Below, piece after piece: positions 7,445-15,400 of a DNA stretch of 40,704 bases. Source of the stretch: Planctomycetales bacterium (GTDB lineage: Bacteria > Planctomycetota > Planctomycetia > Isosphaerales > Isosphaeraceae); the NCBI GenBank assembly GCA_027449865.1, contig DAIDKV010000157.1, forward strand, positions 1 through 40,704. Direction: 5' to 3'. A program made the translations under genes and the position numbers. The notes beneath the pieces are model-generated. The model was not told the origin of the DNA, did not search any database, and saw nothing but the letters and a program-made list of their open reading frames with translations. How positions within the stretch are numbered: position 1 is the stretch's first letter; each line of letters begins with the position of its first letter.

Positions 7445-8335
7445 ATGAAAATCTCCGCCTTCCCTAAATGCTACATCGACCGGATTGCGGGCGACCGTAG
7501 CATGTCGGTGTTCGAGTGGATCGAGATGGCCCGGTCGCTCGACGCTGACGGGCTGGAGATGTACGACGGCTTCTTCGAGAGCCTGGAGCCGGGCTACATC
7601 GATCGGGTTGGCGACGCGATCCGGTCGGCGGGATTCGCGATGCCGATGCTCTGCTGCTCGCCCGACTTCACCAACCCCAACCCCGACGCCCGCAAGCGGG
7701 CCGTCGATCGGGAGGTGGAACTCGTCGCGGTATCGCGACGGCTGGGAGGGCCTCGGACAGTCTGCCGGGTCTTGTCGGGACAGCGATACCCGGAGGTCGG
7801 CCGCGAACAGGGGCTCGAATGGGTCGTCGAGTGCATTGAAGAGGTGCTGCCCGAGGCCCGATCGCACGACATCGTCCTTGGCCTGGAAAACCATTACAAG
7901 GACGGCTTCTGGACCTACCCCGAGTTTGCCCAGAAGCAGGACGTCTTTCTCGAACTGGTCGCGGCGATCGCCGACCGCGACCACTTCGGCGTCCAGTACG
8001 ACCCCTCGAACGCGATCGTCGCGGGCGACGACCCGATCGAACTGTTAAAGGCGGTCGCTGACCGAGTCGTTAGCATGCACGCCAGCGACCGATTTCTCGC
8101 CGAGGGGACGACGCTCGACGAGCTTCGGCAGGCCGACGGCACCCTCGGCTACTCGGCCAACCTCCGGCACGGCGTCACCGGGAAGGGGCTGAACGATTAC
8201 GAGACCATCTTCCGCATCCTCGCCGAGCACAACTATCGAGGGTGGGTCAGCATCGAGGATGGGATGAACGGGATGGAAGAAATGGCCGAATCGCTGGCCT
8301 TCCTCCGACGGATGGCCGCGAAATACTTCCCCTGA
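7445..8335 (+). CDS. Sugar phosphate isomerase/epimerase-like TIM barrel
   Basis: The 296-aa protein fits the xylose-isomerase-like TIM-barrel family (AP_endonuc_2 fold). Candidate metal ligands appear in order: Glu in IVLGLENHYKD, Asp in GVQYDPSN, His in VVSMHASD and Glu in GWVSIEDGM. No signal peptide is present, so it is probably cytoplasmic. The family includes epimerases and isomerases of free sugars, inosose-type cyclitols and keto sugars; the substrate cannot be assigned. The ATG at 7445 is the first codon after an AT-rich heptamer array and lacks a Shine-Dalgarno sequence, but the conserved reading starts at once (MKISAFPKCYID). It lies between a secreted protease and a secreted leucine-rich-repeat protein with no obvious pathway partner. 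Confidence 0.85.
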   Translation: MKISAFPKCYIDRIAGDRSMSVFEWIEMARSLDADGLEMYDGFFESLEPGYIDRVGDAIRSAGFAMPMLCCSPDFTNPNPDARKRAVDREVELVAVSRRLGGPRTVCRVLSGQRYPEVGREQGLEWVVECIEEVLPEARSHDIVLGLENHYKDGFWTYPEFAQKQDVFLELVAAIADRDHFGVQYDPSNAIVAGDDPIELLKAVADRVVSMHASDRFLAEGTTLDELRQADGTLGYSANLRHGVTGKGLNDYETIFRILAEHNYRGWVSIEDGMNGMEEMAESLAFLRRMAAKYFP

Positions 8336-8474
8336 CCGGCCCGACCGCTCGACGCACGCGCCTCTTTCCTCGGACCGGGGCTCCTCGTATGCTCGAAACG
8401 ATCGCGGCCGACGACCGGCCGCCCCGGATCGACCTGATCCCGGTTTGATCGATTACCCGCCGGAGGAACCCGCC

Positions 8475-9305
8475 ATGATCCGACCCGCCCGTCGGCCGAT
8501 CGCCGTCGCGACGGCTCTCGCCCTGATGGCCATTGCCCCCGCCGCCCGCGCTGCCTCGCCCTTCCCGGACAGGAACCTCGAGGCTGCCATTCGCGACGTC
8601 CTCAAGCATGAACCCAAGGTCGAGCTGACCGACGAGAAGCTGCAAAACGTCTATTTCCTGGAAGCGACCGGCAAGGAGATCAAGGATCTCACCGGCCTGG
8701 AGAAATGCAAGAACCTGGCGCAGCTCAAGCTCGACCGGAACAAGATCAGCGACCTGAAGCCGCTGAAGGACCTCACCAACCTGCAATGGCTCGACCTCTC
8801 GGAAAACCAGATTCAGGACATCGCCCCGCTCGCGAACCTGAAGGGCCTGCAATACCTGGAACTCTCGGGAAACAAGGTCGAGAAGCTCGACGCGCTCGCC
8901 GGCCTGGCGAGCCTCAACTCGCTCTATCTGGGCAAGAACGCGATCGTCGACCTCGCCCCATTGGCCTCGCTCTCGAAGCTCTGGACGCTCTCCGTCCCCG
9001 GCAACCGGGTGAAGGATGTTAAGGTTGTGGCGAAGCTAACGAAGCTGTCGACGCTCGACCTCGGCGAGAACCAGGTCGAGGACCTCGCCCCGCTCGGAAA
9101 GCTGACCGAACTGAAGATCCTGATCCTCTGGCGCAACAAGATCAAGGATTTGAAGCCGCTCGCCGAGGCCGTGAAGGCTGACGCCGCCGGCCCGAAGCTC
9201 TTCGCGCCGTACTTGCGGCTCTACATCGATGGAAACCCGCTCAACGACGCCTCGAAGGGCCAGCTCGACGCGATGAAGAAGGCCGGCGTCCGGATTGAGG
9301 GGTGA
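8475..9305 (+). CDS. Secreted leucine-rich-repeat protein, 276 aa
   Basis: The start at 8475 follows GGAGG at the proper distance (8462-8466) and gives a signal peptide (IAVATALALMAIAPAARA). An ATG ten codons upstream would bury the signal. The mature protein opens with FPDRNLEAAIRDVLK, a segment common at the front of internalin-like LRR proteins. About seven 22-residue repeats follow, such as LTNLQWLDLSENQIQDIAPL and LKGLQYLELSGNKVEKLDAL. The repeats follow the L..L.L..N.I.DL.PL pattern of the SDS22/internalin type and form a curved protein-binding surface. There is no LPXTG or other anchor. It probably mediates protein contact outside the cytoplasm; the partner is unknown. Confidence 0.9.
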   Translation: MIRPARRPIAVATALALMAIAPAARAASPFPDRNLEAAIRDVLKHEPKVELTDEKLQNVYFLEATGKEIKDLTGLEKCKNLAQLKLDRNKISDLKPLKDLTNLQWLDLSENQIQDIAPLANLKGLQYLELSGNKVEKLDALAGLASLNSLYLGKNAIVDLAPLASLSKLWTLSVPGNRVKDVKVVAKLTKLSTLDLGENQVEDLAPLGKLTELKILILWRNKIKDLKPLAEAVKADAAGPKLFAPYLRLYIDGNPLNDASKGQLDAMKKAGVRIEG

Positions 9306-9519
9306 TCGACGGGACGAGCCGATCCTGGCGAACTCTCGTTGGAGCCGCCAAGAGCTGCTATCCTGGATCGAACGGGGAGCGACCAGGGACGAGCGCCCCG
9401 TTCCGCCCTTTGCATTCCCGTCTGTTCGGGGCCCATGGTCGAATCTCGGCCAAGGGCCGTCGACGTGGATGATACGTGCCTTGCCAGGGCTTAGACAGGC
9501 AAGGTGGAGCTGGATTCTG

Positions 9520-10704
9520 ATGAATCAATCGGAACTTGAGAAGTGGCTCTTGGATGTGGAGTCGGATCGTACTGAGCGTACCATCTCGCTGAAGGATACC
9601 GATAAATTCGCGGAAGCCATCTGCTCCTTCGCCAATGATCTGGCGAACACCGGGAAGCCCGGCTATCTCTTTGTTGGGGCAACGCCCGATGGCCGGGCCA
9701 GCGGTGCAACCATCTCAGACGACTTACTCCAGCGCCTTGCCGCGATCCGATCGGATGGAAACATCCAGCCCTTGCCGACCATGAACGTCGAGAAATGGGA
9801 TCTCGGCGGCGGCGAGATGGCCGTGGTGGAGGTTTTTCCGTCCGACATGCCCCCCGTCCGGTATCGTGGGCGAACTTGCATCCGAGTGGGCCCTCGTCGT
9901 GGCCACGCGACCCCGACCGAGGAGCGAATTCTCTCCGAGCGCCGGGTCGATCGGGCCCGGACATGGGATGCCCGCGCCTGCCGGGAAGCGTCGCTGGAGG
10001 ATCTTGCTCTCGATCTCTTTTCCCTCACCTACCGACGGAGCGCGGTTGCCTACGATGTCATTGAGGAGAACGATCGAACGCTGGATCTTCAACTGGCCTC
10101 GCTCCGATTCTACGATCTAAGGACCGGCTGCCCCACGAATGCGGGTGTCCTGCTCTTTGGCAGGGATCCGCTCTCATTTTTCCCGGGCGCCTACGTACAA
10201 TACGTTCAGTACGCCGGCGAATCCCAGGCCGACGAGGTCCTGCAAGAACGGAGGATCGTGGGCGATTTGCTGGACGTGATGCGTGACCTCAGCCGGCTCA
10301 CGTTGGAGATCGCCGAGGAGAGGCCGCTCCAGCGCTCCGATCTCTCCGAAACGGCGATCTTTGATTATCCGCCCCGGGGGATGCGGGAACTCTTCATGAA
10401 CGCGGTGATTCACCGGAATTATGAGGAATCCACCACGCCTGTCCTGATCAACCACTATCGCAATCGGATCGAGATTCAGAATCCGGGTGGGCTCTTCGGC
10501 GATCTTACCCCCGAACAGTTCCCGGACGGGACCGCCTATCGCAACCCGGTCCTTGCGGAGGCCGGCAAGATCCTTGGGTTCGTGAATCGCTTCGGGCGGG
10601 GTATCAAGGTCGTTCAGAGAGAACTCCAGCAGAATGGTTCGCCGCCAGCGATCTTCGATCCCCGCCCCAATTTTTTCCTGGCGACGGTCCCGAGGCGTCC
10701 ATGA
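9520..10704 (+). CDS. AlbA_2 (Schlafen-like) plus GHKL-type ATPase protein
   Basis: This 394-aa protein has an N-terminal AlbA_2 domain (residues ~15-130): TISLKDTDKFAEAICSFAND, GYLFVGATPDGRASG, then PPVRYRGRTCIRVGPRR, the typical ending of that domain. The C-terminal half resembles the HATPase_c_4 domain found in the same proteins, with YPPRGMRELFMNAVIHRNY (N-box-like) and EIQNPGGLFG (ATP-lid-like). Such proteins are often labelled RecG-like helicases or transcriptional regulators, but there are no helicase motifs here. ATG at 9520 follows a purine-rich GGTGGAG; the longer upstream reading lacks conservation. Its stop overlaps the ATG of the ParA-like gene by 4 bp, so the two are almost certainly co-translated. 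Confidence 0.88.
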   Translation: MNQSELEKWLLDVESDRTERTISLKDTDKFAEAICSFANDLANTGKPGYLFVGATPDGRASGATISDDLLQRLAAIRSDGNIQPLPTMNVEKWDLGGGEMAVVEVFPSDMPPVRYRGRTCIRVGPRRGHATPTEERILSERRVDRARTWDARACREASLEDLALDLFSLTYRRSAVAYDVIEENDRTLDLQLASLRFYDLRTGCPTNAGVLLFGRDPLSFFPGAYVQYVQYAGESQADEVLQERRIVGDLLDVMRDLSRLTLEIAEERPLQRSDLSETAIFDYPPRGMRELFMNAVIHRNYEESTTPVLINHYRNRIEIQNPGGLFGDLTPEQFPDGTAYRNPVLAEAGKILGFVNRFGRGIKVVQRELQQNGSPPAIFDPRPNFFLATVPRRP

Positions 10705-11738
10705 AAACGCTGGTCTTCTTCAATAACAAGAGTGGAGTCGGCAAGACCTCGCTCGTTTACCATCTAAGCTGGATGTTCGCCGAGCTGGGCGTCAACGTGG
10801 TGGCGATCGATCTGGATCCGCAGTCCAATTTAACGTCATCCTTCCTGGACGATGAGCAACGGATTGAGTTGTGGGAGAGCGAGCATTCGACTCGAACGAT
10901 CCGCGGCTTGATTCAGCCGGTCCTCGAGAAACTCGGTGACATCAGTCCGCCCGAACCCATCGAGATCGATTCCCGCATCGGTCTGGTCCCGGGCGATCTT
11001 GGCCTGAGCCTCTTCGAGGATCGCCTGTCGGAGACCTGGGGGCGTTGCTTCGATGACAATACCGCCAACGCTTCAGACGCTTTCCGGGTCACGACGGCTT
11101 TCTATCGGATCATGGAAATGGCGGCGATCCAGCGTGGAGCCGAACTCGTCCTGATCGATGTCGGACCAGATCTTGGCGCGATGAACCGGGCGGTTCTGGT
11201 TTCCGCCGATCATGTGGTGATCCCACTCGCGGCTGACCTCTTCTCGCTCCAGGGCCTACGCAATCTCGGTCCGACCCTTCGCTCCTGGCGTTCCGGTTGG
11301 GCACGCCGCAAGGAGCATCGGAGCCAACGACTTCCGGAACTTCAAATCACTATCCCAACGGGGGATATGAATCCGGTCGGTTATGTTGTGATGCAACCTT
11401 CCGTGCGAGAGAACTACCCCGTCGCCGCCTATCGTCGGTGGATCGAACGTATCCCGAGGGTCTATTACAGGGAAGTGCTCGGACGCCCGGATTCGGAGGA
11501 GATTCCGGATCCAGATCCGATGGCCCTCGCGATTCTGAAGAACTATCGAAGCCTCGCGCCAATGGCCCAGGAAGCTCACAAGCCGATGTTTGCACTCAAG
11601 CCGGCAGACGGGGCGATCGGCGGGCATGCCGCCGCTGTTCAGGCCAGCCACCGCGCGTTCCGAGAACTCTCGGAGCGGATTGCGTCGGCCTGCGGCTTTT
11701 CACTCCCCAATCGTTCGAAAGGTCCAGCGCGGGAGTAG
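10701..11738 (+). CDS. ParA/MinD-type ATPase
   Basis: The 345-aa product begins MKTLVFFNNKSGVGKTSLVY, a deviant Walker A motif (KSGVGKTS) at residues ~9-16. It continues with VAIDLDPQSNLTSSFL (Walker A' region) and LVLIDVGPDLGAMNRAVL (Walker B region). These are hallmarks of ParA-family P-loop ATPases that dimerise on DNA or membranes. No ParB gene or parS-like cluster is visible nearby, so this is not a standard chromosome-partition locus. The partner is instead the AlbA_2 protein directly upstream (ATGA overlap). An insertion of mixed charge (residues ~190-270, including PTGDMNPVGYVVMQPS and YYREVLGRPDSEEIPDP) lies before the C-terminus. Its role could be positioning, regulation or defence; context alone does not settle it. 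Confidence 0.87.
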   Translation: MKTLVFFNNKSGVGKTSLVYHLSWMFAELGVNVVAIDLDPQSNLTSSFLDDEQRIELWESEHSTRTIRGLIQPVLEKLGDISPPEPIEIDSRIGLVPGDLGLSLFEDRLSETWGRCFDDNTANASDAFRVTTAFYRIMEMAAIQRGAELVLIDVGPDLGAMNRAVLVSADHVVIPLAADLFSLQGLRNLGPTLRSWRSGWARRKEHRSQRLPELQITIPTGDMNPVGYVVMQPSVRENYPVAAYRRWIERIPRVYYREVLGRPDSEEIPDPDPMALAILKNYRSLAPMAQEAHKPMFALKPADGAIGGHAAAVQASHRAFRELSERIASACGFSLPNRSKGPARE

Positions 11739-11827
11739 CGCCACGGGGCCGGTACTTCAGGGCGAGGGACATTGAAGCCGGGCCATTGAGAAGAGACGTT
11801 GGTTTCCTAAAAAACACGGGCGACCAA

Positions 11828-11855
11828 TTCACCGGAGAGCCGAAAAAGATAATAT
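11828..11855 (+). promoter_or_regulatory. Possible promoter for the small gene at 11963
   Basis: TTCACC (11828-11833) and TAATAT (11850-11855) are separated by 16 bp, in one of the few AT-rich patches nearby. Each box matches the sigma-70 consensus at four of six positions. It lies about 110 bp upstream of the small unknown gene. The match is weak. Confidence 0.3.
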
Positions 11856-11962
11856 TAGAGGAGGGCGATACGACGCTTTCTCTCGGCATCGCCGATGGAT
11901 GGCGTCCGTCGCCCATCGAAGGTTGCTGTCATCGCGATGATCTCAGGTCGATGGAGGATCCG

Positions 11963-12241
11963 ATGGATCACTTCGTCAAGCTGGACCGTCTGCCGGATGG
12001 CTACGAGATCCCGACCGGCCTCCGGGAGAAGCTGCAATTCGACGCCGAGGGACATCGCCTTGTGTTCCACGGCTATATGAGCAAGACCGAATTCGACTCG
12101 ATCTGCGAACCCACCCGAGACTGGGCCTTCCGCCGATCGGTCGAGGAACTGTTCTTCAAGACCGTTCACGAGCTGGACGCACCCGGGACCGGCAAGAATC
12201 GGATACTGGGTCTGCTGTCGCGGCTCCTGCCACGGCATTGA
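11963..12241 (+). CDS. Small conserved-looking protein, 92 aa
   Basis: I cannot name this family. The protein reads MDHFVKLDRLPDGYEIPTGL, then LQFDAEGHRLVFHGYMSK and FDSICEPTRDWAFRRSVEEL. The core resembles small planctomycete proteins of unknown function with an IP.-L.-.-.-FDAE...L.F.G.MSK pattern, as far as I can recall. It has no signal peptide or membrane segment and is probably cytoplasmic. GGAGG at 11953-11957 supports the ATG at 11963; an in-frame ATG at 11951 overlaps that site and is less likely. It follows the ParA-like gene by 224 bp, so it is probably transcribed separately. The longer open reading upstream of 11951 overlaps ParA and is a shadow. Confidence 0.65.
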   Translation: MDHFVKLDRLPDGYEIPTGLREKLQFDAEGHRLVFHGYMSKTEFDSICEPTRDWAFRRSVEELFFKTVHELDAPGTGKNRILGLLSRLLPRH

Positions 12242-12494
12242 CCAGGCGTTGGTCCCGCATCGACTTCGGGGGGTGCGCCGGTTGCGCCATCTCGGCCCCC
12301 GGCCATACTTTCCCACTGATGCTGCGCGCGAATGGGACGTCCATACCTATCGTCAACAGGATCTCGCTCCTGTCGATCACCCGCATGATACGGTCCCCGC
12401 TGGTTCCCCGACGCCCTGACCGTTATCTTACGATCAGGCCCTCCCCGGGTCGCGAGGTTGGTCGTGCGGTTCGAGCCGAGAGGAGCCAGGCGAG

Positions 12495-15400
12495 ATGATC
12501 TTGGAAGATGCGCGCAGGATCGGCTGGGTGGCCATGTCGCTGATGATCGGGATGATCTTGCGGCCGGCCGGGGCGGGCGAGCCCTCGAAGGTGCCGGCAT
12601 CGCCGGCCGAGGCTGTCAACCTGTTGACCTTGCCCCCCGGCTTCAAGGCCACCCTTTGCGCCGCCGAACCTGACGTCGTCCAGCCGATCGCGATGGCCCT
12701 CGACGCTCGCGGCCGGCTCTGGGTTGTCGAGAACCGTGCCTATCCGATCTGGCTCGGCGGCCCGACCGGGCAAGACCGCATCCTTATCTTCGAGGATTCC
12801 AACGGCGATGGCCGGTTCGATCGCCGGACCGTCTTCTTCGACAAGGGGACCAACTACACCGGGATCGAACTCGGATTCGGCGGCGTCTGGGTTTGCGCCA
12901 CGCCGAACCTGCTGTTCTTCCCCGACCGCGACGGCGACGACAGGCCCGATGGCCCACCGGTCGTCAAGCTCGACGGCTGGAACGTAAAGGCCCAGCACAA
13001 CCTCTTCAACGCCCTGAAATGGGGCCCCGACGGATGGCTCTGGGGTTGCCACGGCATCCTTTCGACGGCCCAGGTCGGCAAGCCCGGAACGCCCGACGCG
13101 AAGCGCGTGGCGATGAACTGCGGTGTCTGGCGATACCACCCGACCCGCGAGGTCTTCGAGGTCGTCGCGCACGGGACGACCAACCCCTGGGGCCTCGACT
13201 TCGACGACCGCGGCGAGGCGTTCATCACCAATTGCGTGATCGCGCACCTCTTCCGTGTGATTCCGGGCGCCCACTTCGATCGGATGTACGGCCAGGACTT
13301 CAACCCGCATCTTTACGAGTTGATGTCCACCTGTGCCGACCACCTCCACTGGGCGGGCGGCAAGTGGCAGGACGCCCGCGAGGGGAATGTTCTCAACGAG
13401 GACCTCGGCGGCGGTCACGCGCACGTCGGTGGGATGATTTACCTGGCCGACAACTGGCCCGCGAAGTATCGCGACACCCTCTTCACCGTCAACATCCACG
13501 GCCATCGCGTGAACAACGACCGCCTCGTCCGGCTCGACGACGGCGCCCGGATCGTTGGTCGTCACGAGCCCGATTTCCTCCGGTCGTCTGACTCGTGGTT
13601 CCGCGGCCTGGAACTGAAGTACGGTCCCGACGGCGGCGTCTACGTCACCGACTGGTCCGACATTGGCGAGTGCCACGAGAACGACGCCGACAACGCCCAT
13701 CGCGAGAACGGCCGGATCTTCAAGGTCACCCACGGCGATCCGAAGCCGGTAAAGGTCGACCTCGCGCTTCGCTCCGACAGGGAGCTGGCCGGATACCAGT
13801 CGCACCCGAACGAGTGGTATGTCCGGACGGCTCGCCGAATCCTCCAGGAGCGTCTGGCCGCGGGCCACGATCTCAGCCCGGCGCATCAGGTTCTTCGCGA
13901 GATGCTCGACAAGGATACCGACGTCCGCCACCGCCTCCGCGCTCTCTGGACCCTGCACGCGACCGGCGGACTCGACGAACCGGCTCGCCTGGAAAGGCTC
14001 GGCGACGAGAGCCCCGAGGTCCGTGCCTGGTCCGTCCGGCTCCTCGTCGACGAGGGAAAACCGTCGGACGCGGCGATACGTCGACTTTCGGAGATGACCT
14101 ACGAGGGCACGAACCGTGAGCGCAGTCCGCTCGTCCGGCTCTACCTCGCCTCGGCGATGCAGCGCATTCCTCTGGATGAGCGCTGGAAGATGGCCGCGGG
14201 CCTGTTCAACGGTGCCCCAGCCGACCTCGACGCCGATCAGACCCGGCTGATCTGGTATGGGGTTGAGCCCTTGGTCGCGCGTGATCCGTTCCGGGCGTGG
14301 GGCCGGTTGATGCATTCCCGGAACGCGAGGCTCCACCGTTTCCTTGCCCGACGAATGGTGGAGGCGGATCTCGGGGCCATGATGCCAGCGGTTCTGGGGG
14401 CAATCTCCGAGGCCCGTCTCGAATCCTCGCCGGAGATCCCGCGCGCGATTCTTGACGGCGTCTTGCAAGCGGTCGCCGGCCGGAAACGAGTCGAGATGCC
14501 GAAGTGGTGGCTGGAGATCCCCAAGGGGATGGTCGCCAGGGGAGATGCCGACATCCGCGCCAAACTCGCCGCGCTGGGGTTGCTGTTCGGCGATCCGGCC
14601 GCCGAGGTCGAGCTTCGAGCGGTGGTCGAGGATCGAGGCGCTCATGAGGGCTCCCGGCAATTCGCGCTGCGGAACCTGGTCGATCGCCGGGCCGGTGGAC
14701 TGCCGCCGGTTCTCTTCCGGCTGCTCGATAACGAGGCGATGCGGGCCCCGGCGATCCGGGCGCTGGCCGCCTTCAACGACGCGAAGACCCCCGCGACACT
14801 TCTGAAGCTTTATCCGAAGCTCACCACCGCCGAGCGAGACGAGGCGATCGCGACGCTGGCCTCGCGGCCGGCCTGGGCGCGCGCGATGATCGAGGCGATC
14901 GACTCGGGGACGATCCCCCGCCGCGATGTCAGCACGACGATCGCCCGTCAGGTGCAGGCGTTCGGCGATGGCAACCTCACCGGGGCGCTGGAGAAGGCGT
15001 GGGGATCGCTCCGGCCGACAGCTCGCGACAAGGCCCCACTGATCGCGAAATACCGCGCGATCCTGGCCGATCGCAACTTGCCGCCGGCCAACCTTGGCCG
15101 GGGCCAGGCGCTTTTTGGGCGGATGTGTGGTCAGTGCCACAAGCTGTACGGCGGGGGCGGCGATCTTGGCCCCGATCTCACCGGTTCCGATCGCGCCAAT
15201 CCTGATTACATCCTGCAAAACGTGCTCGACCCGAGCGCCACCGTCGGCAAGGATTACACGATGACGACCGTGGCGACGGTTGACGGCCGGCTGATCTCTG
15301 GAATCCTCCGTGAGCAAACGCCCGCCGGGCTGGTGATCCAGACAGCCACCGATCGAGTCACGATCTCGCGCGAGGATGTCGATGCGATCAAGCCGTCGAG

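Follow-up and report, generated by a model that had tools for sequence, protein, structure and literature searches.

A coupled AlbA_2 and ParA-like gene pair from a planctomycete: a candidate conflict module with different predicted effectors among the relatives of its ATPase

Introduction

ParA-like ATPases position cargo. What such an ATPase does beside a Schlafen-type gene is the question raised by a contig of a Planctomycetales bacterium (GenBank assembly GCA_027449865.1, contig DAIDKV010000157.1, positions 1–40,704), which is referred to here at its whole length of 40,704 nt as the window. The host genome (G000) comprises 8.48 Mb in 278 contigs. Two genes overlap on the forward strand of the window: the first encodes a protein with an AlbA_2 (Schlafen-fold) domain and a GHKL-type HATPase_c_4 domain (9520–10704, 394 aa from the ATG used), and the second a ParA-like ATPase (10701–11738, 345 aa). 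An initial annotation of this DNA had proposed the pair as an undescribed sensor or defence unit.

With modest confidence, the pair is regarded here as a toxin-antitoxin-like or abortive-infection module in which the ParA-like ATPase controls a Schlafen-fold ribonuclease (RNase). The AlbA_2/GHKL protein, the proposed effector, would be an RNase, likely directed at tRNA, that stops the cell. The co-translated ATPase, the proposed controller and sensor, would restrain the effector by binding to it in one nucleotide state and would probably occupy DNA in the manner of ParA dimers. The predicted trigger is takeover of the cell by a phage or the failure of a first-line system such as bacteriophage exclusion (BREX); it would shift the state of the ATPase and release the effector, by which phage protection would be achieved. 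If this is true, the gating of an RNase by a DNA-positioning ATPase becomes testable, and bacterial Schlafens are linked to a specific protein controller.

Results and discussion

Linkage and distribution of the pair

The two reading frames share the sequence ATGA at 10701–10704 (forward strand), which confirmed the 4-bp overlap described in the initial annotation and points to translational coupling. Rare adjacency in other genomes had been named beforehand as the result that would speak against a conserved two-gene unit, and it was not observed. The AlbA_2 gene was found directly upstream in 78 of the 80 genome loci retrieved with the ParA protein, the exact 4-bp overlap was present in 70 of the 80, and 126 of 130 rows of the AlbA_2-linked ParA clade carried the AlbA_2 partner. 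The two exceptions were L062, where ParA is cut at a junction, and L066, which has a lone ParA gene. Counted over the ParA open reading frame (ORF) rows that have an AlbA_2 partner, a set in which broken genes and duplicate loci were retained, the −4 geometry occurred in 121 of 152. The same genomes also contain six ParA loci of greater distance (L126–L131), which had no AlbA_2 gene in the stretch fetched. The recurrence of the pair in the same order is far beyond chance.

In the reverse search with the AlbA_2 protein, 33 of 294 genomes of the phylum were matched. At 290 bits or more, 12 of the 14 returned loci had ParA adjacent (window included; one cut by a contig end), and the AlbA_2 gene was damaged in the two without ParA, L247 and L249. 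Among the 16 lower-scoring loci, ParA was found only in L254, a damaged pair; L251 ends near the AlbA_2 gene.

Relatives of the ParA protein were detected in 23 of 392 Planctomycetota genomes (E ≤ 1e-15; mostly five candidates scored per matched genome), 29 of 398 Pseudomonadota, 18 of 296 Bacteroidota and 26 of 194 cyanobacterial genomes. These counts include the centre genomes, each phylum being named after the loci that served as centres. The hits in the last three groups mix partner types because the query was a SIR2-linked ParA. The 68 intact AlbA_2–ParA pairs came from 16 named phyla, archaea included (Methanobacteriota, 3 rows), and on their ParA tree the Planctomycetota alone require 7 changes. 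The distances of the AlbA_2 and ParA proteins of these 68 pairs were correlated with r of 0.71, the maximum of 1000 permutations being 0.19. Due to this spread over phyla, the tree and the distance correlation, the pair seems, judged by its sequences, to transfer between phyla as one unit. It is regarded as old and mobile.

The predicted effector

Two domains of the 394-aa protein were identified by Pfam: SLFN_AlbA_2 (9.5e-11; residues 14–128, forward strand 9559–9903) with E14, E19 and D57, and HATPase_c_4 (5.3e-15; residues 307–389, forward strand 10438–10686). The GHKL part named in the initial annotation is more precisely of the HATPase_c_4 type, and its ATP binding is a prediction. Pfam gave no HEPN match, no winged helix after the HATPase_c_4 domain and no helix-turn-helix (HTH) match in this protein. 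The dN/dS (nonsynonymous to synonymous substitution rates) values determined were about 0.09–0.21, with dS near saturation for the related locus L003.

The structure model (predicted local distance difference test, pLDDT, 90.8; predicted template-modelling score 0.73) was closest to PDB entry 3lmm, DIP2311, with a Z of 22.9. The root-mean-square deviation (rmsd) was 13.4 over 355 residues, and the domains are therefore differently set. Residues 4–147 were superimposed on the tRNase domain of SAMD9 with a Z of 9.1 and an rmsd of 3.6 over 137 residues. Human SLFN11, SLFN12 and SLFN14 were matched by Foldseek, unlike in a second structural comparison, where no SLFN chain was among the 50 rows listed; GHKL- and kinase-type ATPase domains also match the model. 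E14 and E19 were invariant in 67 of 67 sequences. The spacings of E14, E19 and D57, 5 and 38, are those of E205, E210 and D248 in the part of the rat SLFN13 report available to us, the residues being equated by spacing alone (PMC5862951). The window protein resembles Schlafen and SAMD9 tRNase domains in fold and in triad spacing; it differs in being short, bacterial and equipped with a GHKL domain, and in the incomplete conservation of its third acidic residue. Its RNase role is a prediction.

A different reading of the pair is that the AlbA_2/GHKL protein is a transcription regulator, which we take to be of the COG2865 kind, with ParA as its modulator. The unpaired relatives often carry HTH-type domains at the C-terminus, which fits this reading: an HTH- or Fic-like domain was detected in 5 of 6 at E < 0.01, in three of them above the Pfam cut-off. 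However, such a domain was absent in all five paired proteins scanned, the window protein and four others, and in the sister ParA clades the partners are enzymes of the NADase, RNase and synthetase types. Regulation as the function of the pair is therefore considered highly improbable.

As a separate observation, plasmids of E. coli and Klebsiella (several of H143–H163) carry other AlbA_2/HATPase relatives that overlap or adjoin a gene for a 'TrlF family AAA-like ATPase', so that this type of effector occurs in another two-gene arrangement as well.

The ParA-like ATPase

The 345-aa protein matched AAA_31 (5.2e-23) and CbiA (2.3e-12) in Pfam. It contains the deviant Walker A motif NNKSGVGKT with K10 and K15, and N8, K10, K15, T16, D37, D39 and D153 were invariant across 29 aligned rows. 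Its model (pLDDT 91.6) resembled best the PDB entry 3pg5, DIP2308, followed by Soj and ParA; the fold of McdA was matched too. MinD/ParA-like domains, mostly predicted to be inactive, have been described as effectors in nucleoside triphosphate-dependent conflict systems (PMC7159879, in the part available). The ParA-type fold is common to both; in those systems the domain lies inside larger effectors, whereas here it is a separate gene product with intact motifs (PMC7159879).

The entries 3lmm and 3pg5 are the nearest structures of the two window proteins. According to the PDB titles, DIP2311 and DIP2308 come from one species and their tags are three apart; the two may form a related neighbouring pair.

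The role of ParA-like ATPases in placing cargo, together with the fold matches to Soj, McdA and ParA, speaks for a role of the pair in partition or positioning, with the AlbA_2 protein as a cargo placed by ParA and with no relation to conflict. Against this stand the two-gene make-up of the cassette, its patchy distribution (the 23 of 392 genomes of the phylum) and the swapping of effectors described below. Neither ParB nor a replicon gene was found among the seven proteins scanned by Pfam between 5714 and 15500, in agreement with the initial annotation, and no parS-like repeat array was found at the cassette. Plasmid partition of the ParABS type was rejected on these results from the neighbours scanned. 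We consider a positioning role very improbable.

Interchangeable effectors of related ParA clades

The ParA relatives were arranged on a FastTree phylogeny of 183 distinct rows, 36 short or duplicate rows being dropped. The partner label changed 9 times on this tree compared with 54.6 times in shuffles. Rows with SIR2 (9 of 9), HEPN (21 of 21) and RelA/SpoT-type synthetase (2 of 2) partners each fell on one side of a branch, and 24 rows had no detected partner. The few changes indicate that each effector seems to have been joined to ParA about once and then retained. The AlbA_2 gene is located 5' of ParA; the SIR2, HEPN and synthetase-type effectors are located 3' of it. The statement of the initial annotation that there is no known partner was therefore incomplete, since SIR2, HEPN and RelA/SpoT-type partners occur with related ATPases.

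Among the more distant ParA relatives on plasmids, SIR2 partners were determined in L083, L084, L086, L092 and L093 and HEPN partners in L087 and L091; no partner was detected in L082, L085 and L088–L090. A homologue of the SIR2 partner occurred in 8 plasmid records and adjoined this ParA in all 8. The synthetase partners of the genome surveys were found in L144 and L175 (RelA_SpoT, 2.7e-14 and 5.3e-17). The HEPN partners scanned gave Pfam matches to HEPN_RiboL-PSP. The catalytic motifs of the partners were largely kept: Rx4H in 27 of 27 HEPN proteins, NFD and HG each in 27 of 29 SIR2 proteins, and the synthetase motifs in a 19-row consensus. For the SIR2 partner, a resemblance to ThsA and DSR2 was noted.

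In the viral-contig survey, the best 80 of 381 loci were analysed, 47 of which were paired: 20 with a synthetase, 19 with SIR2, 5 with HEPN, 2 with AlbA_2 and 1 with a cyclase-like protein. The synthetase loci, assigned by hidden Markov model, were L280, L283, L288, L290, L291, L295–L300, L302, L307–L309, L315–L318 and L330, and in these the synthetase gene is close downstream. Many of the viral-contig loci lie in prophages, as judged by eye from neighbouring ORFs. In toxSAS and CapRel systems, as far as described in the passages available, a toxic synthetase is likewise controlled by a partner and occurs in phage-related DNA, and the 20 of 80 synthetase-linked viral loci are comparable with them; in contrast, the controller here is a ParA-like ATPase, and the window has no synthetase.

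The closest known arrangement is the gene dyad of a HEPN protein (MAE_18760) and ParA/Soj, which was predicted in 2013 to be a toxin-antitoxin system (PMC3710099). In both cases a ParA/Soj-like ATPase is coupled to a conflict-type RNase, and the HEPN-linked ParA proteins of this study are related to the window ParA by sequence and tree. The two differ in that HEPN lies downstream in the dyad, whereas the effector of the window is an AlbA_2/GHKL protein encoded upstream, the ATPase gene not being the 5' one. In the passages of PMC3710099 available to us, no AlbA_2 or SIR2 protein is mentioned with ParA. Among the literature matches listed, which were largely non-subscription and available in part, the 2013 prediction was the only closely similar pair, and no AlbA_2, SIR2 or synthetase version of the dyad was present. 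As a kind, the pair extends the predicted ParA–HEPN dyad; what is new is the range of effectors. The term 'undescribed' of the initial annotation accordingly holds for the AlbA_2 version, as far as these sources extend, and is too strong for the arrangement as such, given the dyad of 2013 and the published Schlafens of BREX systems discussed below.

It is possible, although we put it at slightly less than an even chance, that one group of ParA-like ATPases forms a common sensor or safety catch for at least four unrelated toxic enzymes and with them a general immune platform, which is not known to have been described as such. Its effectors, each joined about once and passed on as a unit thereafter, might comprise the Schlafen RNase, a SIR2 NADase, a HEPN RNase, a RelA/SpoT-type synthetase and perhaps a cyclase-like protein. 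This platform might act on its own, within prophages and, next to BREX-type genes, as a fail-safe. If so, the scattered 'ParA family protein' annotations without ParB would come together as an identifiable class of conflict systems that share a controller and have interchangeable toxins.

The partnerless ParA genes include the E. coli prophage copy L094. In L082, L136, L180 and L269–L275, ParA-like genes without a detected effector were observed, and the surroundings of several are phage-like or rich in recombinases. The sister clade of the AlbA_2-linked ParA consists of L082, L136 and L180. It is possible that such genes are orphan antitoxins or serve counter-defence.

Two further arrangements were noted. 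Similar genes (by eye) of about 190 aa without a Pfam match are located upstream of ParA and the synthetase in L144 (917–1468) and L175 (882–1463), which suggests a three-gene operon in two phyla. In L159 (2536–3270; also L216, 7217–7951), a gene for a cyclase-like protein begins 3 bp downstream of a ParA-like gene, and an OLD-type nuclease gene (PADLOC Old, 191 bits) is about 2.5 kb from it. The L159 partner had no convincing PDB sequence match and no Pfam match, 'cyclase-like' being a reading of the sequence by eye.

Defence-gene neighbourhoods

Of the 117 AlbA_2 loci that extend at least 300 bp beyond ParA, 10 had the pair joined to genes of BREX or DUF1156/DUF499 type, as had one contig of a viral collection (L268). 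In L268, PglX (1339.6 bits) lies on one side of the pair and PglZ (933.8 bits) on the other, with BrxL (840.9 bits) coming next. A BrxL homologue was located downstream of the pair in L037 (5.3e-102) and L096 (6.3e-20); the genes in between are PglZ-like by eye, the one scanned in L037 having no Pfam match. In L008, L011, L029, L033, L041, L076, L080 and L098, a DUF1156 gene, assigned by Pfam on seven of these eight loci, overlaps the ParA stop by 4–11 bp, and L080 carries DUF499 further downstream as well. DUF1156-like hits were also present near the pair in the uncounted loci L012, L095, L170 and L171. An overlap of 4 or 1 bp with ParA was seen for 13 ORFs of at least 100 aa. Seven of them belong to the DUF1156 kind (L106 by eye), two, in L037 and in its duplicate L101, precede BrxL, and the remaining four are unrelated or spurious ORFs. 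No BREX or DUF499 gene was found among the seven window proteins scanned.

Schlafen RNases with a minimal histidine kinase and a winged HTH (wHTH) domain have been linked to BREX and BREX-related, DUF499-centred systems, where they are named as back-up effectors (PMC12839542, in the part available). The combination of AlbA_2 with a GHKL-type domain and the location of relatives beside BREX and DUF1156/DUF499 genes are in common with the present pair. The wHTH domain of those proteins was, in contrast, not found in the paired form, which is coupled to ParA; in the available text of PMC12839542, the terms ParA, MinD and SIMIBI occur 0 times. The sensor or defence role proposed in the initial annotation is consistent with the junctions described above, which concern a minority of loci, and it drew no support from the neighbour scan reported below.

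Gene breakage, P-loop decay and the role of ParA

The AlbA_2 gene was broken or absent, with ParA in one open frame, at 14 distinct loci (L002, L005, L025, L032, L053, L057, L062, L066, L069, L117, L140, L147, L148 and L182), and the reverse was detected at one (L162). A locus was counted when ParA coverage was at least 0.95 and the AlbA_2 gene, away from contig ends, was missing, shortened or divided into pieces; duplicates were counted once. In L002, for example, AlbA_2 lies in two open segments, and ParA is open with a canonical P-loop. L247, where an insertion removed the AlbA_2 C-terminus and ParA, and L249, where the AlbA_2 domain is gone, belong to neither class, and both genes are damaged in several loci such as L007, L081, L111, L154, L156 and L174. 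The P-loop of ParA (residues 8–16) was altered at 7 of the 14 effector-broken loci (L025, L053, L057, L062, L066, L117 and L147) in comparison with 8 of 111 loci with both genes intact (Fisher p 1.8e-4, rows not independent). The decay of the ATPase motif once the effector is gone indicates that ParA works for the effector. The breakage pattern is suggestive of a costly effector with its controller, and it fits a co-effector equally.

Several results weigh against the control of a toxic Schlafen RNase by ParA. In toxin-antitoxin operons the antitoxin comes first, and here AlbA_2 is the first gene, contrary to this rule. The third acidic residue of the effector is incompletely conserved (position 57 is D in 38 and N in 21 of 67 sequences), and residue 21 is T in the window protein and K in most relatives. 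An open ParA frame together with a canonical P-loop is retained at just 7 of the 14 effector-broken loci, by which the asymmetry is reduced to a strict 7 to 1; L062, L066 and L117 are lone ParA genes of the clade with altered P-loops, and eight intact pairs carry altered P-loops as well. The loci were found mostly via ParA and many are from metagenome assemblies, a sampling bias due to which the breakage asymmetry is only suggestive. As for the surroundings, 107 of the 117 loci, the window's pair included, were not counted as joined to BREX or DUF1156 genes. The PADLOC scan of neighbours showed no enrichment, with 188 families for 109 neighbours vs 245 for 102 control proteins (19 control regions; 109 of 175 neighbour proteins from 48 loci, those above 900 aa left out; 25 families among the matches listed). 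Finally, 33 of the 80 viral-contig ParA loci had no detected partner.

These results also bear on the possibility that ParA is a co-effector or activator: a nucleoid ATPase would recruit and switch on the effector, both being needed for growth arrest. An experimental precedent in function is known from ICEclc, where ParA and Shi jointly arrest growth, an effect that is lost when the ATPase motif of ParA is mutated (PMC6812849, in the part available). There, too, a ParA-family ATPase has a partner encoded by an overlapping gene; Shi is, however, short (258-bp gene), and parB adjoins it (PMC6812849). The effector-first gene order of the AlbA_2 branch speaks for a co-effector, the P-loop decay is explained by it at least as well as by an antitoxin, and the paired AlbA_2 proteins are devoid of the C-terminal HTH- or Fic-like domain, as if ParA had taken over DNA binding. 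On the other hand, the breakage ratio of 14 to 1, even with its strict value and the sampling bias in mind, is easier to understand with a harmless ParA and a costly effector. The co-effector role is thus judged to be rather unlikely, and the ParA-like ATPase as controller of the Schlafen-fold RNase is preferred.

Limits of the cassette and neighbouring features

A genome of the same genus, G1285 (L360), aligns to positions 7986–9307 and 11806–13493 of the window, with 20 nt in between. The breakpoints of this alignment delimit the cassette to 9308–11805, with two genes only, which are present or absent as a unit. The end at 12241 proposed in the initial annotation was therefore too far, the cassette ending near 11805. 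The nearest fetched relative, L002, shares 91–94% DNA identity. The more distant L003 retains the pair beside the same leucine-rich repeat (LRR) gene, so a clean loss in G1285 is no less likely than a gain in the window genome. No short repeats of 8 bases or more are common to the cassette ends.

The G+C content at 10–12 kb, 0.58–0.60, is at the low end of the window range, and the window ParA protein had one match within its own genome at the search threshold. There was no tRNA in the window, the NCBIfam search gave 0 families above the cut-off, and the promoter and terminator scan reached chance level only.

The 92-aa gene (11963–12241) had been considered a possible member of the system and was ruled out as a third component, since it remains at the empty site without the pair. 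It was detected in 9 of 21 genomes searched, its own included, and in none of L002–L081, and it has no Pfam match. This gene precedes a cytochrome gene, even where the AlbA_2–ParA pair is missing.

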